DNA from: Thermoplasmata archaeon
GTDB lineage: Archaea; Thermoplasmatota; DTKX01; JAHFTX01
NCBI GenBank assembly: GCA_023265395.1
Contig: JAHFTX010000012.1
Location: 1-64,000, forward strand
DNA: 64,000 nt
Direction of reading: 5' to 3'
Both the position numbers and the translations under genes were made by a program. Shown piece after piece: positions 10,290-42,630 of the stretch (position 1 is its first letter; every line of letters begins with the position of its first letter). The notes below the pieces were generated by a model. The model did not search any database and had not been told where the DNA came from. It saw only the letters and a program-made list of their open reading frames with translations.

Positions 10290-13200
10290 TCACTGTTGCA
10301 GTTTGCGAAGCACGGAGTCGATGACGTCATCCCCGCCCTGCGCCTCTTGTGCTGCCGGAGCAGTCGGCACCGGGGTCGGTGAGGACTCTGCGACGTACCA
10401 CCCGTCATCCGGCGGCGGGACCGCTTCAGCGGCTGGTGCAGTGACCGATGGAGGCTGCGGAGGGCTGCTCGGCGCAGTCGTCGGCCCAGCAGGCGGCACG
10501 GAGTTCGCCTGCCAGGGATCACTCGGGCCGGTAGGCTGGTAGGGCGCCGCAGATCCGAGCGATTGCACATTCTGCGGCTGCGACCATTGCGGGGCAGCAC
10601 CTGTGGGTGCTAGGCTCCCGACGGGGGCCATCCCCATGCCATCCGACCCGCCGAGCTGCGACATCCGGGGCGCGGGCTCGACCCCGGCCCGCTGAGCTGC
10701 GCGGCGCCTGCGCATCAGCACTGCCGCGATCACGCACAGTGCGACGATGGCGAGCAATGCCATCACACCGAGCGACCCACCGAAGCCGCCTCGGCCCTCT
10801 TGCTGCGGGGCAAAAGGGGTGGCGAGGAGCGGGGCGGTCACGCGCACCTTTGCGGTGCCGCTGGCGCTATTCCCAGCGGCGTCGAGAGCGGTGACCTTGA
10901 CGGCGAAGGTGCCTGGCTTGTGGAAGGTGTGCGACGACAGCGTGCGGGTGGTGGTCTCAGGGTCGCTGCCGTCATCGTAGTCGATGATGTAGGAGACGAT
11001 CTTCTGGTCGTCCTTGCTGCCGTCGAGGGAGATGCTGACCCGTCCTCCGACGCTGGTGCTGGTGGGTTGCGCGACGACTTTGACCTTGGGGGCCTCGGTG
11101 TCCAGCTGTACCGCTAGCTTGGTGTGTTCCCCTGAATTGCCCGCAGCATCGATGGCATAGAACGTGAGGGTGTGGGGCCCCTCGGGGACCTCGAGCGGGG
11201 TGCTGTAGGCCGCCTCCGGTTCCCTGTCCCAGATGTAGAGCAAGCTCGCCCCGACCTCGTCGGTCGAGAGGGTGATGGTGGTATCCTTGGTGAGCCATCC
11301 TCCTTCATTGGGCTCTGCGCTCAGCGTCGCGTTGGCGCCGGGCACGGTGCTGTCGAGGAGCACCTCGAGCTCGTGGCGGAGCTCGGTGTTGCCCGCCTCG
11401 TCGACAGCCCAGTAGCGCAACATCGAATCGCCCTGCGGGACCTCCGGCGGGACATCGACCGACGAGAGTGGCTCCTCTTCGCCCCACTGGTACCACACCA
11501 CGGCACTGGGGTCGTCGGGCAGCTCGAAGAGCACTTCTGGAGCATTGACGTACCAGCCGTTGCCTCCATCGGGGTCCTCGGGGGAGAGCTCGACGAGACA
11601 CGAGGGGACCAGCAGGTCGACGCGGACCTCGACCGACTCGACGGCCGATTCGTGTCCGACGACGTCCTTGCCGTAGAACTCCAGCGTCGCCCGGCCATGG
11701 CCCAAGACGATCGGTGCGGAGTAGGGCAGCCACAGGCCGCCGTCGGTGCGGTAGAACAGCTCGGCGGGCTGGGGCTCGTTGGTGGCTTCGAGGGTTATCG
11801 TGGGCTTGCTGACGTACCAGCCGTCGGCGCCATCGGGCAGGGGCGGCAGGAACGTGGCGTTGACCGCCGGGGCGTCGAGGTCGACCTTGACGGTCGCCTC
11901 CTGGGCCGATTCCTTGCGCTGCTGCGTGCTGCCGACCGACCAATAGGTCAGGGTGTGCACCCCCTCACCGAGCGTGAAGGGCCCTGCACCGGTCATCGCC
12001 TCGCTCCCATCGACGGTATGATAGGTCTCGTCGATGCGGGTGGGCTTGTCGAACGTGAAGGAATACGTCGGGGCGGTGGTGTACCACTCCCCGACCTCGC
12101 CCTCGCTGGGATCGAGCACCAGCGTCGTCACCGGGGCAGCACTGTCGACCTTGAGGTCGACGGACTGCTCGACCTCGATGTTGCCCGCGAAATCGACCGC
12201 GTGGAAGTAGATAGTGTGCTCGCCTTGGGGGACCGCCACCGAGGCCGGTCCGACATAGGGGGCGTCGATGCCGTCGTCCCAGCGGAAGGAGATCGTCGCC
12301 GTCGGGTCGACCGTCTCGAGGGTGACCGTTGGCGAGACGGTGTACCAGAGCCCATCGTCCGGTGCCGCCGGCGAGAGGCTGATGGTCGAAACCGGGGGGG
12401 TGAGGTCGATGATCGACGCGGAGAGGGTGTAGGAGATGTCCGACAGCGAGCCCAGCGCCAGGTAGACGGTGGTCGGGCCGCCGACCCCGCCGAAGTCGGG
12501 GACCTCGAAGAAGGGTTCGGTCATCTCGGTGCGTACCGGGTCGTCACTGCCGGTGATGGTGAGCACTTGGCCGATGAAGAGCCCACCGGTGTCGACGCTG
12601 ACCCGCAGTGTGTCACCGGTGCCGCCGACGTACTTGTAGTACCGCGCGCCGTAGTCCTCGACGTTGGTATTGGCGTCGTAGGGGTAGCTCGCCACCTGGC
12701 TGACCGAGGGGGTGATGTCGAAGGTGTCGTATCCCCACAGGCCGTCGCCGATGGAGGTATCATCGAGGAGCGTCGCCAGGACCCAGTCCTTGTAGATGCC
12801 CGTCGAGTCGATGGGATACCCGTTGGTCGACAGCTGCGAGGAGATCGAGCCGAGCCCGTTGCTCTGGCGCTGGACCAGCGGCTCGATGTAGCCTTGGCCT
12901 CCGTAGTGCTCCTTGAGGTACTGCATGAAGGTGAAGGAGCCGCCATAGTCGTGCCCGGCGTTGTTGAAGGTGGTCAGGGAGCGCCAGGTGTTCACCTGGT
13001 AATCCTGGACGTGGCCAGCCAGCCCGATCGAGTCCTGGAAGGGCATGTTGAGCAGGATCGCCATGTCGCTCATGCCCTCGTTCATCCACAGGTCCTCGTC
13101 GCAGTCGTAGTCGCACTGGATCAGGTGGTAGAACTCGTGGGCGGCGATCTCATCGCCCCAGATCCCCAAGTCGGCTGTGTCGATGGTGATGCGGGTCGGG

Positions 13201-31373: not shown

Positions 31374-31582
31374 GGCTGCTCCCAGGCAGCCTCCCCCGCG
31401 GCGGCTCCCCGATGTCCCGTCACGACGTCCGCGGCCTGTCCCTGTGGCGAGGCCAAGGTCAGGAACTGCTGGCACCAGGCTTGGACCATCGGAAGGCAGA
31501 TAGGGCTGCAACCCTGGGGCAGCCGCAGGCGAGGACCTTGGTGGGTGTATCGAACGCTGCGGTGGGCTCCTCACGGCTGCGG

Positions 31583-32566
31583 ATGGACCACGCATTGCGT
31601 GGACGAAAGGCTCCCTCCTTCGCCGACGATGTCCGCACGTCCCTGTGGGACGTCCCCAAATGGCTACCCTCGAAGTACTTCTATGACGAACGTGGCTCGG
31701 AGCTGTTCGAACGGATCTGCACGCTGCCGGAGTACTACCTGACGAGCACCGAGGCGCAGATCCTGCGCGGGGCCGCTTCAGAGATCGTCGCGGAGGCCTC
31801 CATGGGAGAGGACCTGGTGCTGGTCGAACTCGGCAGCGGATCGTCGCGCAAGACCCAGACCCTCATCGCCGCGCTGCTGGCCGCCCAGGGACGATTGCTC
31901 TACGTCCCCATCGACATCTCCCCGACGATCCTGCACCAGGCGGCAGAGCGGCTGCTCGCCGCCTACCCGACCCTGCGGATCGTGGGCAAGGCCATGGAAC
32001 ACGAACAGGGACTGGCTGCGCTCTCGTTGGAGCAGCAAGGACCCAAGCTCGTGCTGTTCCTGGGCTCCTCCCTCGGGAACTACGAGCCTGCAGACTCAGA
32101 ACGCTTCCTGCGTGAGATCCGGCGCCACCTCGGACCGCAGGACCACCTGCTGCTTGGGGCCGACCTCTGCCACGACCCCGCGGTCCTCGAAGCGGCCTAT
32201 GACGACCCCACGGGGGTCACCGCCCTCTTCAACAAGAACCTGCTGGAGAGGATCAACCGCGAGCTGGGTGGGCGGTTCTCGACCGAGAGCTTCGACCATC
32301 TGGCGTTCTTCTCCCCCGAGAAGGTGCGGGTCGAGATGCACCTGCGCAGTCGCATCGACCAGCAGGTGCCCATCGAGGCGATCGGAGAGGTGGTCCGGTT
32401 CTCCGCAGGGGAGACGATCCACACGGAGAACTGCTACAAGTACACCCGCGAGCAGCTCACCACGCTCGCCGAGGTCTGTGGGTTCGCCCAGGTCACCTCG
32501 TGGAGCGACCCCCCTGATCGGTTCAGCGTCCAGCTGCTGCGGCCGCGTGGTGCCTCTCTCCGCTAG
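31583..32566 (+). CDS. EgtD-like SAM-dependent methyltransferase (Methyltransf_33/DUF2260 family)
   Basis: LVELGSGSSRKTQTLIAAL, VPIDISPTIL, LGSSLGNYEP, AAYDDPTGVTALFNKNLLERINRELGG; start trimmed to internal ATG. Confidence 0.85.
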   Translation: MDHALRGRKAPSFADDVRTSLWDVPKWLPSKYFYDERGSELFERICTLPEYYLTSTEAQILRGAASEIVAEASMGEDLVLVELGSGSSRKTQTLIAALLAAQGRLLYVPIDISPTILHQAAERLLAAYPTLRIVGKAMEHEQGLAALSLEQQGPKLVLFLGSSLGNYEPADSERFLREIRRHLGPQDHLLLGADLCHDPAVLEAAYDDPTGVTALFNKNLLERINRELGGRFSTESFDHLAFFSPEKVRVEMHLRSRIDQQVPIEAIGEVVRFSAGETIHTENCYKYTREQLTTLAEVCGFAQVTSWSDPPDRFSVQLLRPRGASLR

Positions 32567-34057: not shown

Positions 34058-34915
34058 CTAGGGCGGTGCAAGACCACGGTCGGCAAGGCCGGAGCGTGCA
34101 AGTCGTCGATGCTGTTGACCGAGGGTGCGCTCCATCGCCGCAGCGTCACCGCCGAACCATGCCGTCGTGGCCGCCTCCAGCTCCTCCTGCACCTCTTCAG
34201 GCGTCAGGCGGTACTCGGGCGGTTGTCCGCGCAGCAGGTCCCGCACATCAACTCCATGGAGGCCCCCGAGCACACAGCCGAGGTGGTACTCCCATTGGTC
34301 ATTGTTTGCTCCCAGTTCGGCGATCGCTTCCGCCACGGAGAGGGCGGGGATCCTCATTGCTGGGGCGACCTGCCCCAGCTCAAGGGTAGGTGGGATGAAG
34401 CAGACCGCCACCGCCTTCCCAAGATGGACCGGCACCGGCACGTAGCAGGGGGACCAGTATCGCATCTGCTGATAGAGCTGGAATTGATATCTGGGGAAGT
34501 CGGCGACCTTCATTGCCAGCTGCCACAGGAAGGCCTCGATCCGCAGGCCCGCACCAGCAGCCTCACGTTCCAGGCCCGCCAGGATCTGCGCACACCCCGT
34601 TCGGGCGGCGATCGCCTGCCATCCACCCTCTGCCAACTGCAGCACCAGGCCCTCGACCGCAGTAGAGTCGACCGGGTCCTGCGGTGAGCGAATCACCCCG
34701 CCCATCGGCCAGGTGCGTGGACGCAGCCCTGCAGCCACACGCGCCTTGGCCGGTCCCTCCGGTGCGACGCGGACGCAGTAGCCGCGCTCCGCAGCCCCGA
34801 TCGCCGCCATCTGGGGAGGTCCCTGGGTCGGCACGTCCGGCCCCTGGCGCAAGCCGGTGCGGCTGAGCAACGAGCCGTAGACGAAGAGCGTCCCGCCACC
34901 TGCGGGAGGTGACAT
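34058..34915 (-). CDS. GGCT/AIG2-like (gamma-glutamylcyclotransferase-fold) protein with C-terminal helical extension
   Basis: GGTLFVYGSLLSRTGL resembles the GGCT-like FVYGSL signature; start overlaps upstream stop (TGATG). Confidence 0.55.
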   Translation of the reverse strand: MSPPAGGGTLFVYGSLLSRTGLRQGPDVPTQGPPQMAAIGAAERGYCVRVAPEGPAKARVAAGLRPRTWPMGGVIRSPQDPVDSTAVEGLVLQLAEGGWQAIAARTGCAQILAGLEREAAGAGLRIEAFLWQLAMKVADFPRYQFQLYQQMRYWSPCYVPVPVHLGKAVAVCFIPPTLELGQVAPAMRIPALSVAEAIAELGANNDQWEYHLGCVLGGLHGVDVRDLLRGQPPEYRLTPEEVQEELEAATTAWFGGDAAAMERTLGQQHRRLARSGLADRGLAPP

Positions 34916-36516
34916 CACCCCATCCCACCGTGGAAGTGGCCAGGGTGCGAATGGTAGCCGAAGCCCCGGCGGGAGCCGTACCACCGCCGCCGGTAGCCTC
35001 CCCAGTAGACGTGGTCGGAGTGCCCGGCGCGGTACCAGAACCACGAAGGCTGATAGTTGGCGACCGCCGCCTGCTGCACCTGGTAGTGGACCTTGAGGTA
35101 GTGTTGCGGCAGGAGGACCGAGCTATAGAAGGCCTGGCTCAGGACAGGGAACTGTGCACCGTCGATCCTGCGGGGGTCGAGCCCTCGGGCGATGGCGAAG
35201 ACCGCAGGGTTCTGGAGCACCAGCAGGGCCAGAGAGGCGTCCTCGCGCGGTGAGGCCCCGACCTGCCGTCGCGCCATGGCCCGGATCGCGCGGTCGAAGT
35301 GCGCCAGCACCTCGGCGGGGCCCAGGGGCGAGAGGGCGGCGAAGGCCGCGGCAATCTCGGGATGATCGACCCGTTGGCGCAATTGCGGGAAGAGGGTGCC
35401 GAACCGGTCGATGGCCCGCTGGAGCTCGCCCGTGCCCATGGTGAGCATCGCCGCCACGGAGGTGCGGGTCGCCGGCTGGTCGATCCCGATGGCTGAGAGC
35501 GGTTGGTTGAGCCCCCCCAGGTGCTCGAGCGTCTGCTCGAGGGGCCGCGGCTGGACCAGGAGCGCCGCAGCCAGCGGGGGGTCCCCGGGGAGCAGCTGCA
35601 TCAGCCGCGAGGCCAGCTGGCCCGCCGCAGGGGTAACCTGCTCGATGGGCAACGCTGCGAGCACCGCTGCCGCGGCCGTGCGCTTGGCAGCGTCCATCGG
35701 CACGCTCCAGAGCGCACGGATCGCTTCGTAGAAGGGACGATGGTCGGGACTGCTGCTGCTGGCGGTAAGGATCATCGCCGCGGCCAGCCCGCCCATCCCC
35801 GGATCCCCCTGGGAGGTCTGCTGGAAGTTGTCCAGGAAGCGCGGCACGGTGAGCTCAGGCGGCTCGGGCAGACCCGCCAGCACGAAGGCCACCGGGCGCA
35901 GGTCGGTCGGCGAGACCGTCGCGCCCAATCGCGCCATCAGCTGCTGGTGGATCTGGCTCCCCAGGGTGATGCGATGTTCGAGCCATGCATCGACCGCGGC
36001 GTTCCACTCGAGGACCTGCTCGAGGTTCGCGGTGCCCAGCACCTCAGGCGGGAGCGCCTCGAGGTCGCGCAGCACCTCCCAGCCCTGTCGGTTGATGGCG
36101 TAGGCGCTCTGGGTCGCTGCGCTATAGGCCAGCCGGGCGAGGGAGGCTTGGATCCGCATGATCTCGAGGGTCCGTGAACGGATCGCCGCCAGCTCCTGGC
36201 GCGTCGAGGTGCGCTCGGCAGCGGCATCGCGCTCGGGGCCCTCCTCTCCCTTGGCCCCCAGCAACTTGCCCAGCAGCGAGGCGTTGGAGCGGTCCAGCTC
36301 CATCTCGAGCCGGTGGACCTTGCCCATCAGCTCTTGCTGTCGCGCCACCAAGGTGGGAAGCTCGGCGACCTCCTTCTTGCGTTGCCCCAGCTCCCATTCC
36401 GAGAGGATGTCCACCAGTCCGCGCTTGACGAGGTCTTGTCCCTCGATGGCATCGAGGCTCACCTGGTCGTTGTCCCGGACGGTCCGCAACAGCGCCAGAG
36501 CGCGGTCAGAACGCAT
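34915..36516 (-). CDS. helical/coiled-coil protein of unknown function with His/Gly/Tyr/Arg-rich C-terminus
   Basis: Coiled-coil-like QQELMGKVHRLEMELDRS; tail HSDHVYWGGYRRRWYGSRRGFGYHSHPGHFHGGMG; TGATG overlaps on both sides. Confidence 0.7.
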   Translation of the reverse strand: MRSDRALALLRTVRDNDQVSLDAIEGQDLVKRGLVDILSEWELGQRKKEVAELPTLVARQQELMGKVHRLEMELDRSNASLLGKLLGAKGEEGPERDAAAERTSTRQELAAIRSRTLEIMRIQASLARLAYSAATQSAYAINRQGWEVLRDLEALPPEVLGTANLEQVLEWNAAVDAWLEHRITLGSQIHQQLMARLGATVSPTDLRPVAFVLAGLPEPPELTVPRFLDNFQQTSQGDPGMGGLAAAMILTASSSSPDHRPFYEAIRALWSVPMDAAKRTAAAAVLAALPIEQVTPAAGQLASRLMQLLPGDPPLAAALLVQPRPLEQTLEHLGGLNQPLSAIGIDQPATRTSVAAMLTMGTGELQRAIDRFGTLFPQLRQRVDHPEIAAAFAALSPLGPAEVLAHFDRAIRAMARRQVGASPREDASLALLVLQNPAVFAIARGLDPRRIDGAQFPVLSQAFYSSVLLPQHYLKVHYQVQQAAVANYQPSWFWYRAGHSDHVYWGGYRRRWYGSRRGFGYHSHPGHFHGGMG

Positions 36517-37892
36517 CAGTGGCCCCCTCCTTGGATCAGGTCGGGCCCCAGCATCCCGGCAGCGGCTCCCGCGATGGCCGGCCCGGTCGCTCCTTGCAGC
36601 GCCGCCGCCACGCTGGGTGGATGCACTGGTAGATCGAGCAGGGGCACGCGCACCGTCTCTCCGAGCAGTCCCGGCGGATGCAGCAGCAACCAGAGCCGCT
36701 GGCCCTCCCACTCGGTACGGGCGATGGGGTCATCCTGCAGTGCCATGGGCAACAGGCCAGCCAGCGTCTGGCGCCATTGCGCCCAGCGCACGGGTTGCCC
36801 TTCCAGCTCCATCGCGGCGCCCCACAGACGTGTGACGGCATAGAATAGTTCGTAGCACGTACGCCCGAACTGCTCGCGCTGCACCTTGTGCACCCATCCG
36901 GGGGTCGGCAAGCGCACCGGCTCGAGCCCTTCGAGGTCGGCAAAGTAGAGCGTGCCGTCGGGCGCGATCACCGCATCCTTGTCCAGCCACACGTCGCGGT
37001 AGTCCATCCCTACCCACCCAGGGCCCTCGAACAGGCCATGTTCCTCGCCAAGGTCTCCCCTGCCCGCTGGCCGCAAGGTGCGGCACAGCACAGTGGTCGC
37101 TGCCACCCCCGAGGCGAGCATGCGCAGGATGCGCTCCTCCAGTGGGAGGGAGCTGAGCTGGGCGGTGGCGGCGATGACCTCCATCGGGTCGTTGCCGGCG
37201 CTGACCGAGCCGCCGAAGTAGACACGTACGTTTGAGGGAACCAAGCGGAGCTCCTGGACTGCTGGCCCATCGAATCGCCGCAGCCACCAGTGCTGCGCTG
37301 CGAAATCTGCCGCCTCTTCTGGGAGCGCCACGACCGCGACCGACGGGCAGATCCGGAACCCACACACATCGGAGGGGTCGTCGGGGGATGCGAGGGCCGA
37401 GAGTGCCAGCGAGCCGTCGGTGTTGGGCAGCCCCTGCGCGCCATAGGCGCTCGAGCCAAACCACTCCTCGGAGGTCACCCACGGGCTTTCTAGCTCGGGC
37501 AGGGGCTCCCCAGCCCGAGCGGGCACACCGCGCATCCGCGCAGCGGTCTGCTCGGTCATCGGCCCGTCGCCATAGAGGTCGGACCGGGTACCGACCCCCT
37601 TGACGCTGAGGACGAACCCTTGTCCAGAGAGGTCGACCCGTTGCTGCGGCAGGATCGCACACCTGTTGTCGTCGGCGATCGCACGAACCTCCCCCCTGGC
37701 TGGGGCGCCGCAAGCTGCAGCAAAGCGCGGCGGGAGGAACCACCGAATCCCGCCGATGGATTCAAGGCTCTGCGCTAGGAGCGGGTTGCTGCGCAACGCC
37801 TGGGCCTCTGCGAAGACCAGGGGACGGTCCTCCTCGCGAACGAGCAGCGGCGGAAGGATGCCGATGTGATGGGGTTGCGGAGGAGTGTACAT
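36516..37892 (-). CDS. uncharacterised protein with kinase-fold-like motifs
   Basis: FVLSVKGVGTRSDLYGDG (candidate ATP-binding Lys) and GMDYRDVWLDKDAVIAPDGTLYFADLEGL (catalytic-loop/DFG-like spacing). Confidence 0.6.
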   Translation of the reverse strand: MYTPPQPHHIGILPPLLVREEDRPLVFAEAQALRSNPLLAQSLESIGGIRWFLPPRFAAACGAPARGEVRAIADDNRCAILPQQRVDLSGQGFVLSVKGVGTRSDLYGDGPMTEQTAARMRGVPARAGEPLPELESPWVTSEEWFGSSAYGAQGLPNTDGSLALSALASPDDPSDVCGFRICPSVAVVALPEEAADFAAQHWWLRRFDGPAVQELRLVPSNVRVYFGGSVSAGNDPMEVIAATAQLSSLPLEERILRMLASGVAATTVLCRTLRPAGRGDLGEEHGLFEGPGWVGMDYRDVWLDKDAVIAPDGTLYFADLEGLEPVRLPTPGWVHKVQREQFGRTCYELFYAVTRLWGAAMELEGQPVRWAQWRQTLAGLLPMALQDDPIARTEWEGQRLWLLLHPPGLLGETVRVPLLDLPVHPPSVAAALQGATGPAIAGAAAGMLGPDLIQGGGH

Positions 37893-37896
37893 CAGC

Positions 37897-39564
37897 TCAC
37901 CTGCGGAACACCGGCGAACCACCGCGCGACTGACCGCGGCTGGTCAGGAACGATTGGCCGGCGACGGTGAATCCCAGCTGCTGGTAGATGCGCGCCGAGG
38001 GGGTGTTCCAGGTGGCCACCTCGGTGAGCGCCTGCGGTATCCCCAGCGCGGCGAGCGCCTCGATGCGCGCCTTGACGAGGTCGGCGCCGACGCCGCGGTT
38101 GCGCCAGGTCGGGTGGACCGTCAGCCCATAGAGCCGTCCCAGCTGCGGGGAGATGTTGCAGAAGCCAAACCCGACGATGGCGCCCTGGTATTCGGCGACG
38201 AAGGCGAGGTCGTCGCTGGTGAGCGTGCGGTCCACCCACCGCTGCACGGCCACGCCGTAGACGCTCTTGGCCAGCGTGACGATCGCCGGGCCGTCCTTGG
38301 GTGTCGCCGGGCGCACGAGCTGCCCGTCGAATCCCAGACGCGCACGGGTCCCCCCGACATAGAGATCGTAAGTCTCGACGCGCGTGCCCTCGAGGCCGAT
38401 CTCGCTGAAGAAGTCTCGCGACCGGCTGTAGCGGAGCAGTTCGTCGGCCAGCCGTGGGTCATCGGCATAGAGCGAGACGGTGCGCGACTCGCGGTCGCCG
38501 ATCACGACCCCGCGCAGCGCCTCCCCATCGAGCGCGATCCAGACCCGCTCCTTGGCCTCGGCAGCCCGCTCGACCATCTCGGCGACGAAGGGGCTGTAGT
38601 AGGAGCGGAAGGAGAGGCGCAGGTGGTGGATCCCCTGGCCCGTGCCTAACCGGCGCAGTTTGGGCCGGACCGTCGTGCCATCGAAGGTGACGAGCCGCAC
38701 CCGTCGGGGGCCGTAGCGGCGGTGGACGACCAGCCCGATGACCACAAAGAGGACGCCCAGCCCTAGTCCGTAGGTGGCCCCGACCATCCACCAGCTGACC
38801 TGGAACCCGAAGCTCTGTGGCGTGATCTCGGTGACGGTGTGGAGGTGGAAGCCACCGATGAAGTCGATTCCTTCGTCATCCTCGGAGTAGTCCGCCGTGA
38901 TCAAGTACCCTGTGTGGGGATCGAAGTAGAGCGTGTTGCTGTAGGTCGCATAGGCAGTCCCGTAACTATCGTTGCGCTCGAATCCGCCACGATCCACCAG
39001 CCGTGTCGACTCCAGTGGCGTGGCGCCCCGCCACACGACTGCATGGGGCTCAGCGACGCTCAGTTGTTGGTCGCTGCTGGGGACAGAGCCGCCCAGGGCG
39101 GGGATGTGCTCGATGTGGAACCAGACGGCGAGGGTGCTGCTGTTGGCGCCTGCGTACGCCTCCCCGAGGTCGTTGTCACCGACGTAGGTACGCTCGACTC
39201 GGTCGAAGGTGAACACACCACGGATCCGTCCGGAATCCGTCGCGCCGTCGCTACCCGAGAAGGTCCATTTGACGTTGGCGCGGAACCGCACCTGGTGGGT
39301 ATCGACCGTCAGGATCTCATAGGTACCCGAGCTCTCACTGCGGTCGCTATAGTCGTAGTAATCCCCCCATCCGCCATCGACGGTGACCACCTCGTGCACT
39401 GAGAACCTCTGCCCCGCATGGGGTGCCTGACCACCGGAGGCCGCAGCGCCGCCAAGCATGCTCAAGCCTGCGCCCAGAAGCAACAACCCGATGAGCGCAG
39501 TGGCAGCGCCGCGACGTCCCGTTCCCGCTCGTGCCCGCCTGCCCGTTCGCACGGGCTCGACCAC
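37897..39564 (-). CDS. transmembrane protein: secreted N-terminal domain, one TM, cytoplasmic GNAT acetyltransferase domain
   Basis: N-terminal hydrophobic signal, TM WWMVGATYGLGLGVLFVVIGLVV, C-terminal GNAT pattern VAEYQGAIVGFGFCNISPQLGRLYGLTVHPTWRNRGVGADLVKARIEAL...IYQQLGF. Confidence 0.85.
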   Translation of the reverse strand: MVEPVRTGRRARAGTGRRGAATALIGLLLLGAGLSMLGGAAASGGQAPHAGQRFSVHEVVTVDGGWGDYYDYSDRSESSGTYEILTVDTHQVRFRANVKWTFSGSDGATDSGRIRGVFTFDRVERTYVGDNDLGEAYAGANSSTLAVWFHIEHIPALGGSVPSSDQQLSVAEPHAVVWRGATPLESTRLVDRGGFERNDSYGTAYATYSNTLYFDPHTGYLITADYSEDDEGIDFIGGFHLHTVTEITPQSFGFQVSWWMVGATYGLGLGVLFVVIGLVVHRRYGPRRVRLVTFDGTTVRPKLRRLGTGQGIHHLRLSFRSYYSPFVAEMVERAAEAKERVWIALDGEALRGVVIGDRESRTVSLYADDPRLADELLRYSRSRDFFSEIGLEGTRVETYDLYVGGTRARLGFDGQLVRPATPKDGPAIVTLAKSVYGVAVQRWVDRTLTSDDLAFVAEYQGAIVGFGFCNISPQLGRLYGLTVHPTWRNRGVGADLVKARIEALAALGIPQALTEVATWNTPSARIYQQLGFTVAGQSFLTSRGQSRGGSPVFRR

Positions 39565-39600: not shown

Positions 39601-42600
39601 CTACTCCGTCGGCGGTGGCGGCAGTGAGCGTCGATGCGCGCGCACCCACCGGACGGCCACGAGGAGAGTCGCGACCAGCAGGAAGGTCGCCCCCAACCCC
39701 CCGCCCACAGGTCCATCGAGGCGCTCGGCGAGGCTGGGCTCGACCACGTCCACCTCCACCGAGGTGCGGTTGGTGTTCCCCGCGTGGTCCACCACTTCCA
39801 AGCTCACCGTGTGGCGGCCGGAGCGCTCAAAGGCATGGCTGATGGTGCCCGCGGTGCTGACGCGCGACTGGCCTTCGTCGAAGAAGAAGCGGTAGGTGAC
39901 AATCCCCTGGTCGTCCTCGCTGTCACTGCCGTCGAGCAGCACGAGGCTGCCGGCACTCACGCGCTGCGGGACCAGCAGCACCGGTTGTGGTGGGACGAAG
40001 TCGCTGCGCACCTGCAGGTGCTGTGGCTCCTGCTGGTTGCCCGCGGCGTCGGTGGCCCAGTAGGTCCACCGGTGGTCCCCCCCGGGCAGCGCCATCGGCC
40101 CCTCGTACCGCACGGGCGCCGCAGAATCCTCTTGGATGAGGACCGTCACAGGGGAGCCATGGTCCTCCACCTCGGTTGCGAGCGTCAGGGTGACGCGGGA
40201 GGAGAGCCACTGGGGCGCGCCGTCAGAGTCGGGGCTCGGCAACGGTTGCACCGTCGCTCCCGACCACGGGACGGAAGTGTCCACAGCCATCGCCAGGACG
40301 ACCGGCGGGGAGCGGTTCCCCGCAGGGTCGGTGGCGATGCAGCGGACCTCGTGCGCACCCTCGGGGATTACCAATGGTGCCTTGACGAGCGAGGCGCCGG
40401 GCGAGACCACCTCCACATCCAGGTCGCACTGGACGGTCGCCTCAGGGTCGGTCAAGGGCTGGACGTGCGCGCGTGATCGGTACCACCCCTGGCTGCCGTC
40501 GGGCAGAGGCGGGTCGGCGACCAGCGCCAGGCTCGGGGGCTGCGAGTCTATTCGCAGTACCAGCTGCTGGGACGACCCGATGTTGCCCGCCACGTCGACG
40601 GCAGCGTAGTGGAGCGTGTGGGTCCCCTCGCGGCCGATCAACGGCCCAGCGTACGGGAAGGAGGCCTCGTCGTCCCACCAGAAGTCGATTGCGTCGTCGC
40701 TGCTGAGGGTGACCGAGGGCGGGTGGGTGTACCATCCCTGGGAACCGTCCGGCGTCACCGGGGTGACGAGCGCACTGGCGTTGGGTGGTGTGCGGTCGAC
40801 CTTCAGATGCAACGCACGAGGCTCGCCGATGTTCCCCGCCAGATCGACGGCCCAGTACCAGAGGTCATGCACCCCCTCTGGTGCGAACAGCGGCTGGGTA
40901 TAGTTGGTCGCCGCATCGGCATCGAGGCGAAAGCGCACCTGAGCGTCCTGCTCGCTGCGCAGCGTCACCTGCGGTGTTGAGCGGTACCATCCTTCGTCGC
41001 CGTCGGGTTGTGGCGGATCGATCTCTGCCGACGCCGTCGGCGCCGTCATGTCGAGCACCACATGGCGTGCCTGGGAATCCTCACGATTGTCCAGCAGGTC
41101 GGTGGCGAACCACTGCAGCAAGTTGTCTCCTTCGACGAAGGTGGGCTGGGGTGAGACGGCGCCGCCCGAAGGGCTCGTCTGGGGCGCCCCGGTGTCGACC
41201 CAGTAGGTCATCGTCGATGGCTCGTCGGTATGGAAAGAGACGATCGGTGGCTTGTTGAACGCCGTAGCGTCCTCGGGAGGCGCCGAAGGGCTGAGCAGGA
41301 GGGTCGAGACCGGTGGCGGTAGCCCGAGCCTCACGTCGAGGGAGAAGTGCGTCGCGCTGCCGCTGCTAGCGATCCCATCGAGGCGGACCCCGCTGTCGCT
41401 CCCATCGGTGCGCCGGCTGTCGGGGTTGGAGGTGTTGGTCAGCGTGTCGAACCCATCGCTCCCATCCCAGAGGGAATCCAGCGCGAAGATAGCGCCTCCA
41501 GGTGGCGAATCCAGCAGCTGGGGCCAGGTCCCCTCGACGAGGTCGACGCGTCGACGCGAGTCATCGCTGTTGGAGATCCGACCGAGGTCGACATGCCAGA
41601 CGAGCAAGCCTTCGCCGGGCAAGCTCGCGTCGAAGCCGGTTCGTTGGCGGACCTCCAGGAGGAAGAACTCCTCGGAGTCGATGGGGATGACCGCCACCTG
41701 CCGGGAGGTCTCGACCGCATCCAGCTCCAGGTGAGTCGGCGAGGTGGTCACGATTTGCACCCTTACCCATCCTAGCTGCCACTTGCTGGGGCCGCTCAAC
41801 TGCGGGGGAAGGTCCAGCGTGTCGCCCCACCCCAGCAGGTCCCATCCCCCGACGCCGAGGCTGGTCCCATCAGGGTCTCGCAGCAGAACGAGCCCGAGGT
41901 CCTCGCACAACAGGCGGCTGACCCGCGCGGTCGGCGCGACCACCGAGGAGAGCAGGTAGCTGGGGATCGTCACCCCGTCGCGGACGACGCCCGAGAGGGT
42001 GGCGTGATGGCTCCACACTTGTGGGTCGCCGATGGAGGAGGTGCCGCCGTCTCCGTCATCCTCGTCGGGGATTCCCGGATGCAGCAGCACCAGCACGTCG
42101 AGCAGCCCGTCCCCATCCTCGTCGTAGAGTGAGAAGTCCACAGCGGCATCGACCGCATCGATCGCCTCGAGGGCCAGTTGCTGGCCGTTGGCCAGTCCCG
42201 GTGGAGGGTCGCTGCTGGTGTCGAAGAGGCCGTAATGGCCCTCGCTGCCGGTAAGATTGACCCAATCGGCAGGTGCGTCCCCCTGCAGCGTGAGGTTGTC
42301 CCCGCTGCTTTGGGAGAAGTACTCGGCCATCGAGGCGGAACCGGTGGTCGGGTCGAGGTAGCGGTCGGCGATCTCCGTCGGCGTCGTCGACGGCGCTGGC
42401 ACGTCGGTGAATGCGACCAGCAGGATGAGCACCCGTGCGTCGGCTTGCACCGGCGTCGGCGGCGTCGACGGGTCGTCGTTGAGCGACCGTGACGAAGGAT
42501 CCAGGTGCGTCGGCGGCGCCCCCACCACCGTTGGAGTCGGAAGGCTTAGCAGCACCACGGCGGCGACGATGGCCACTGCGCCGATGGAGCCCATGTCCGA

Positions 42601-42630
42601 TGGGTGGTCGCCCGGGTACAAAGCGTTCAC
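39601..42630 (-). CDS. M6 (immune inhibitor A-like) surface protein with degenerate active site, Ig-like repeats and C-terminal TM
   Basis: RVLILLVAFTDVP, YFSQSSGDNLTL, YDEDGDGLLDVLVLLHPG are M6-like; expected HExxH replaced; repeats GWYxxxPxVTL...YWAVDLAGN; PKD-like segment; C-terminal TM. Confidence 0.8.
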   Translation of the reverse strand: MNALYPGDHPSDMGSIGAVAIVAAVVLLSLPTPTVVGAPPTHLDPSSRSLNDDPSTPPTPVQADARVLILLVAFTDVPAPSTTPTEIADRYLDPTTGSASMAEYFSQSSGDNLTLQGDAPADWVNLTGSEGHYGLFDTSSDPPPGLANGQQLALEAIDAVDAAVDFSLYDEDGDGLLDVLVLLHPGIPDEDDGDGGTSSIGDPQVWSHHATLSGVVRDGVTIPSYLLSSVVAPTARVSRLLCEDLGLVLLRDPDGTSLGVGGWDLLGWGDTLDLPPQLSGPSKWQLGWVRVQIVTTSPTHLELDAVETSRQVAVIPIDSEEFFLLEVRQRTGFDASLPGEGLLVWHVDLGRISNSDDSRRRVDLVEGTWPQLLDSPPGGAIFALDSLWDGSDGFDTLTNTSNPDSRRTDGSDSGVRLDGIASSGSATHFSLDVRLGLPPPVSTLLLSPSAPPEDATAFNKPPIVSFHTDEPSTMTYWVDTGAPQTSPSGGAVSPQPTFVEGDNLLQWFATDLLDNREDSQARHVVLDMTAPTASAEIDPPQPDGDEGWYRSTPQVTLRSEQDAQVRFRLDADAATNYTQPLFAPEGVHDLWYWAVDLAGNIGEPRALHLKVDRTPPNASALVTPVTPDGSQGWYTHPPSVTLSSDDAIDFWWDDEASFPYAGPLIGREGTHTLHYAAVDVAGNIGSSQQLVLRIDSQPPSLALVADPPLPDGSQGWYRSRAHVQPLTDPEATVQCDLDVEVVSPGASLVKAPLVIPEGAHEVRCIATDPAGNRSPPVVLAMAVDTSVPWSGATVQPLPSPDSDGAPQWLSSRVTLTLATEVEDHGSPVTVLIQEDSAAPVRYEGPMALPGGDHRWTYWATDAAGNQQEPQHLQVRSDFVPPQPVLLVPQRVSAGSLVLLDGSDSEDDQGIVTYRFFFDEGQSRVSTAGTISHAFERSGRHTVSLEVVDHAGNTNRTSVEVDVVEPSLAERLDGPVGGGLGATFLLVATLLVAVRWVRAHRRSLPPPPTE

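Follow-up and report, generated by a model that had tools for sequence, protein, structure and literature searches.

The question raised by this locus is whether four closely packed genes on the minus strand of the window (the whole 64,000-nucleotide stretch of Thermoplasmata DNA that was analysed) belong together, and if so, in what kind of process they take part. A sequence-only reading had seen in them a candidate four-gene module made up of an extracytoplasmic domain linked to an acetyltransferase (A), a protein with kinase-like Lys and Asp motifs (B), a helical protein with a His/Gly-rich tail (C) and a GGCT-like protein (D). The presence, order and coordinates of the four minus-strand ORFs were borne out (Table 1), as were the TGATG start/stop overlaps between B and C (36514-36518) and between C and D (34913-34917) and the 4-nt spacing between A and B. 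The four genes are part of a longer same-strand run with short gaps, consisting of an RND-type transporter, an M6/PKD-repeat protein, A, B, C, D and an MFS transporter, thus co-transcription may extend past them; D, which overlaps the stop codon of C, is probably co-transcribed with C. Among the matches of A-D to Pfam, NCBIfam or PADLOC models, only that of the GNAT domain in A was clear.

Table 1. Features of the locus, with positions in the window. E and G denote the families of the extracytoplasmic domain and of the tandem GNAT.
Feature	Position	Strand	Description
Gene A	37897..39564	-	555 aa, GTG start; E-G fusion ORF
Gene B	36516..37892	-	458 aa; predicted kinase-fold-like protein, family without Pfam or NCBIfam model
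Gene C	34915..36516	-	533 aa; predicted helical coiled coil and alpha-solenoid, disordered C-terminal tail
Gene D	34058..34915	-	285 aa; overlaps C stop; N-terminal YGSLL motif
A, extracytoplasmic domain (family E)	38794..39435	-	E profile match 2.9e-28; alignment with the relatives' separate E
A, cytoplasmic GNAT region (family G)	37936..38631	-	G profile match 3.9e-45; PF00583 9e-15
B, catalytic-loop-like stretch D300-V-W-L-D-K-D306 ... D319	36936..36995	-	no change at D300-D306 or D319 among 31 homologues
C, conserved C-terminal tail, terminal Gly	34918..35058	-	HPGH at 34936-34947
RND-type transporter	45217-42659	-	named by eye
M6/PKD-repeat surface protein	42630-39601	-	upstream of A
MFS transporter	34015-32573	-	after D in the same-strand run

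A single-protein scan of genome contigs with B alone found no relative. With a three-sequence B alignment we retrieved 27 MAG loci, of which 26 were titled Thermoplasmata. When A was compared with these 27 loci by tblastn, its outer domain matched a gene downstream of B (E), and its GNAT half matched an opposite-strand gene adjoining E. Locating the ORFs gave a common layout in the relatives, B (~390 aa), C (~509 aa) and E (~350 aa), followed by a convergent G, a tandem GNAT. B was directly followed by C in all 27 named loci, the start of C lying between -32 and +2 nt from the stop of B, and the B-C-E order was found in 27/27 if contig ends are allowed for. E overlapped the stop of C by 4 nt (ATGA) in 24/25 loci, and of the 21 loci extending far enough all but one (20) had a convergent G beside E, four others stopping at a contig edge. 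The exception (L012) had a transposase-like ORF at the place of G. Twenty further loci showed the same picture: 18 had B-C-E with a convergent G and two (L091 and L092) were of the fused type described below. It must be noted that some of these overlap named records (e.g. L101 and L022), thus the counts are not all independent. The B-C-E plus G order also occurs in family f27.

In a survey of 390 genomes of the phylum the B and the C profiles each matched 15 genomes, 14 of which were common to both; one of the 15 B matches (G354) was short and weak. B was present in 40/81 sampled genomes of family f7 and in 5/81 genomes of the order to which G092 belongs, and some genomes had two copies; one of the genomes carrying the module consists of just one closed contig of 1,938,699 bases. 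The module is an accessory one in Thermoplasmata's phylum, Thermoplasmatota. Wherever the contigs allowed the check, the homologues of A, B and C were linked, in at least four families and at ~33-38% identity in B. The strong linkage seen in this neighbourhood comparison across several families, which the sequence-only reading had suggested as a check, shows that A, B and C constitute a conserved module, a variant of an arrangement of four functional parts, E, G, B and C. Besides these four, no outer neighbour was kept in at least five loci (a count leaving aside the G-fused DAO domain and out-of-frame shadow ORFs of the module genes), and the genes flanking the module are not conserved. The dN/dS values of related pairs were mostly 0.13-0.35 in all four families (B, C, E, G), showing that the module genes are under purifying selection; L023/L027 (E, G) and L091/L092, pairs that have diverged further, gave higher values (0.5-1). 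When genomes are compared in pairs, the identities of B, C, E and G are correlated (0.83-0.95). That the homologues of A, B and C recur together in dozens of genomes, with a low dN/dS, is more than expected by chance.

The proposed four-gene module therefore held for A, B and C, but not for D, which had no conserved linkage to them. Among 60 relatives we found one marginal short match to D (E 0.007) and otherwise none, and the surroundings of the module in L055, in L091 and in L092 contained no D homologue. A paralogue with 35% identity is encoded elsewhere, unlinked, in the genome of the window. Because D had no Pfam, NCBIfam or PDB match, its description as GGCT-like is unconfirmed; the N-terminal YGSLL motif, the one feature pointing that way, does no more than suggest a GGCT fold. 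We rejected D as a module member, since it was not found beside A-B-C in other genomes and has no recognisable family, and regard it as a local neighbour outside the conserved module.

The description of A as an extracytoplasmic domain joined to an acetyltransferase agrees with its two hydrophobic segments and C-terminal GNAT domain. Its layout, with a membrane topology that, like that of E, is predicted from hydropathy, comprises a hydrophobic segment or signal sequence (aa 19-43), an outer domain (~aa 44-257), a TM helix (aa 258-282) and a cytoplasmic tandem-GNAT region (~aa 300-543). Membership of A in the GNAT superfamily is clear (PF00583, 55.4 bits vs. a cut-off of 20.7), RNRGVG being the acetyl-CoA loop (R/Q-x-x-G-x-G/A in the superfamily); both A and G carry the acetyl-CoA motif R-x-x-G-x-G/A. 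The N-terminal half of the tandem appears, by eye, to be a degenerate GNAT. The outer domain of E and A, ~200 aa between the two hydrophobic segments, had no Pfam match. In the relatives E has a signal sequence, the outer domain, a TM segment and a C-terminal zinc ribbon (CxxC...CPxCGA), in whose place the GNAT stands in A. E shares its signal sequence, outer domain, TM and cytoplasmic ribbon with other zinc-ribbon membrane proteins of Thermoplasmatota, but its outer domain belongs to no Pfam family, and A lacks the ribbon.

Judged from the alignments, A unites in one fused gene E and G, which are separate genes in most relatives. There G lies on the strand opposite to E, thus co-regulation of G is not required. 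E-G fusions ahead of B and C were found in the window, in L055 (family f52), whose fusion protein is 28% identical to A over 576 columns, and in L092; in L091 the gene ahead of B and C encodes a TM-GNAT protein and has a broken 5' part that is not recognisable as E. In the B tree the fused and split types fall on opposite sides of one branch (100/98); since L055 and the window form long branches, this is moderate evidence for the fused type being one clade. In a second fusion, found in L013, L021, L022, L024, L028 and L030, G bears a DAO domain at its N terminus (PF01266, E values down to 1e-61). These loci form one subclade of the split type, and the DAO domain is absent from the window module. 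The closest solved relatives of the DAO-GNAT protein are dimethylglycine dehydrogenase, sarcosine oxidase and glycine oxidase, from which it differs by the fused GNAT. The likeness of A and G to RimI/MshD-like tandem GNATs lies in the clear GNAT domain, but A differs from them by its fusion to a membrane ectodomain, and one G subclade by its fusion to an FAD amine-oxidase domain.

B and 27 of its relatives, scanned singly, belonged to no Pfam or NCBIfam family, and a profile search of PDB sequences found no relative. The Lys and Asp motifs that had led to the comparison with kinases are present. Comparing the AlphaFold models of B and C with the PDB, a check that had been suggested for all four proteins, returned mostly kinase folds for B and designed alpha toroids for C; the matches of B were weak. 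For the B model (pLDDT 72, pTM 0.78) nearly all top matches were kinase folds, including ALK2, ROP5, APH, choline kinase and MPH-E, with a best E value of 5e-3 and TM not above 0.35. On this weak structural likeness we infer that B is a kinase-fold-like protein. K98, R216, R223, D297, D300, D304-K305-D306 and D319 are invariant in 31 homologues, including that of L055. K98, D300, D306 and D319 resemble an ATP/Mg site, to the extent that the weak model places them correctly, and the D306-x12-D319 spacing equals the N171-D184 spacing of PKA. B differs from protein-kinase-like folds in having no sequence similarity to them and a catalytic-loop-like stretch that is longer by one residue. No histidine kinase, receiver or eukaryote-type kinase Pfam domain was found in A-D or their relatives.

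We also considered whether B is a relative of SelO/YdiU (PF02696), an AMP transferase with a kinase-like fold in which the roles of K113, R176 and R183 have been described (PMC8097203). B has D-x-R, K-G-x-G and R-x-x-P-S-x-x-R in the same order and with similar spacing, and by eye R216-LVPSNV-R223 and K98-G-x-G look like R176...R183 and K113 of SelO; B differs by an insert of ~45 aa and by keeping an Asp at the HRD-like place. However, neither B nor its relatives matched PF02696, the 50 structural matches listed for the B model did not include SelO, and hhalign of B with SelO gave P 0.02-0.07, the observed score (26.5) being close to the maximum obtained with shuffled columns (25.3). As the profile comparison was not significant, we keep the likeness of B to SelO as a lead only. 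SelO itself was found in none of 11 Thermoplasmatota genomes, including that of the window.

C is predicted to be helical with a disordered tail rich in His, Gly and aromatic residues, in agreement with its earlier description. Scanned singly, C and 25 relatives belonged to no Pfam or NCBIfam family, and sequence searches of solved structures found no relative. BLAST with the C of the window returned almost nothing, and its linkage to the relatives' C was established by their profile (E 2e-12 / 7e-17) and by the L055 bridge. The AlphaFold model has N-terminal helices, a long helical hairpin, an alpha-solenoid and the disordered tail; its only high-probability matches among solved structures were designed alpha toroids. 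Every one of the 49 complete homologues, which have 40 distinct tails and come from both module types, ends in Gly, and HPxH occurs within the last 40 aa in 48 of them; most tails are not Gly-Gly. Some genomes encode solenoid-only C paralogues, two of which (G364, G271) are encoded close to very large secreted repeat proteins.

Our best explanation, to which we assign a probability of about one in three (0.35), is that the locus encodes an envelope-anchored protein-modification or signalling module. The envelope-sensing or protein-modification pathway of the sequence-only reading likewise keeps the rank of an inference. The outer domain of E would bind or sense something at the cell surface, and its cytoplasmic end (in the window the GNAT itself, elsewhere mostly the zinc ribbon) would recruit C. 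B, as a putative nucleotide-dependent enzyme, and the predicted acetyltransferase G would then modify either C or a client held on the C solenoid. If C is the substrate, the site of modification is probably its exposed, invariant tail. Several observations speak against this explanation: the structural matches of B are weak and it has no sequence relatives in Pfam, NCBIfam or PDB, G is encoded on the opposite strand in most relatives, the FAD amine-oxidase domain on G in a subclade fits small-molecule or amino-acid chemistry at least equally well, and B occurs in only about half of the sampled f7 genomes (40/81). A more specific version, which we consider quite improbable, is that B represents a novel nucleotidyl- or phosphotransferase of archaea with a kinase fold, which activates or modifies the HPxH...Gly tail of C at the membrane. 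The acetyltransferase would take part in the same envelope-coupled pathway, joined in one lineage by a glycine-oxidase-type domain.

The terminal Gly of C could also mean that this is a maturation or biosynthetic module, in which C serves as a protein of the carrier or precursor kind, its C-terminal Gly being activated by nucleotide-dependent B and then modified by the GNAT, in one subclade with the glycine/sarcosine-oxidase-type domain, E serving as a membrane tether. The conservation of this Gly in 49/49 homologues, the solved oxidases nearest to DAO-GNAT, and the possible SelO-like motifs in B, SelO being an AMP transferase (PMC8097203), would all be accommodated. However, C has no ThiS/MoaD-like fold, it is ~500 aa long with tails that mostly lack Gly-Gly, and the conserved genes include no E1/ThiF-type partner, thus we think this alternative unlikely. 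Similarly doubtful is a role in cell-surface biogenesis or quality control, where the C solenoid would act on surface proteins as their chaperone or scaffold, with E, B and G adjusting the assembly of these proteins. The M6/PKD-repeat protein and RND-type transporter genes upstream in the window and the secreted repeat proteins near the C-solenoid paralogues of G364 and G271 are in line with such a role, but the module flanks are not conserved and the paralogue neighbourhoods amount to two examples.

The patchy distribution in family f7 and the double copies in some genomes could be those of a defence or conflict system. This is highly improbable: PADLOC gave no match apart from a sub-threshold chance one (E 0.055), no relative was found in phage, plasmid or viral collections, no part is nuclease- or toxin-like, and the genes are under purifying selection. 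That unrelated genes came together by chance is hardly credible and is refuted for A-B-C by the neighbourhood survey, in which their homologues were linked in every checkable genome of at least four families; D and the outer neighbours, which are not conserved, would fit it.

We found no description of an E/G/B/C module in open-access papers, and within that literature the earlier statement that no described system has this set stands for A-B-C. As we found no system with these parts there and two of the families (B and C) have no public model, we judge the module to be previously undescribed. Two independent gene fusions tie its parts together, and the invariant C-terminal Gly and the HPxH of C provide a concrete, mutable handle on its chemistry. 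If our preferred reading of an envelope-anchored module is true, archaea would have a new kind of device for modification or signalling that is linked to the cell surface and contains two protein families outside Pfam and NCBIfam.

One copy of the module (L053, G092:C1), at a locus with 35% G+C, is carried on a closed genome of 1,938,699 bases. Two differing copies sit in a single genome bin, MAG YP4.bin112 (L007 and L030); G436, which carries L096 and L097, is probably the same genome as this bin. In the relative L012 a transposase-like ORF starts at 11683, directly behind the membrane-protein gene E, at the position occupied in relatives by the tandem-GNAT gene G, which was not found in L012. 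In one subclade G is joined to an FAD-dependent domain of the glycine/sarcosine-oxidase type, and L021, L024 and L030 carry the same fusion as the loci listed in the table.

Further tail-less, solenoid-only paralogues of the coiled-coil protein C are encoded on G295:C40 and G089:C146, and genes for secreted proteins of about 2000 aa lie near the paralogues in L079 and L081. The paralogue of gene D adjoins an amino-acid-permease-like gene.

In the protein encoded upstream of gene A, the M6-metalloprotease-like domain (TIGR03296, 1.6e-26, under the family cut-off) is followed by repeat and PKD domains. Because inspection by eye finds LCEDLGLVL at the expected position of the HExxH zinc motif, this protease looks inactive. 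Just downstream of leuS lies an ORF whose product reads, by eye, like an EgtD-type histidine methyltransferase.

Features in the window and in related loci
Feature	Locus	Position	Strand	Remark
M6-metalloprotease-like protein	window	39601-42630	-	upstream of A; TIGR03296 match under the cut-off
EgtD-type histidine methyltransferase-like ORF	window	31412-32566	+	by eye
Gene D paralogue	L056	9476-10402	-	G000:C33, elsewhere in the window's genome
Solenoid-only C paralogue	L079	8215-9492		tail absent
Solenoid-only C paralogue	L081	1063-2253		tail absent
G + glycine/sarcosine-oxidase-type domain fusion	L022	11818-13809		
G + glycine/sarcosine-oxidase-type domain fusion	L028	11674-13758		
G + glycine/sarcosine-oxidase-type domain fusion	L013	11729-13711
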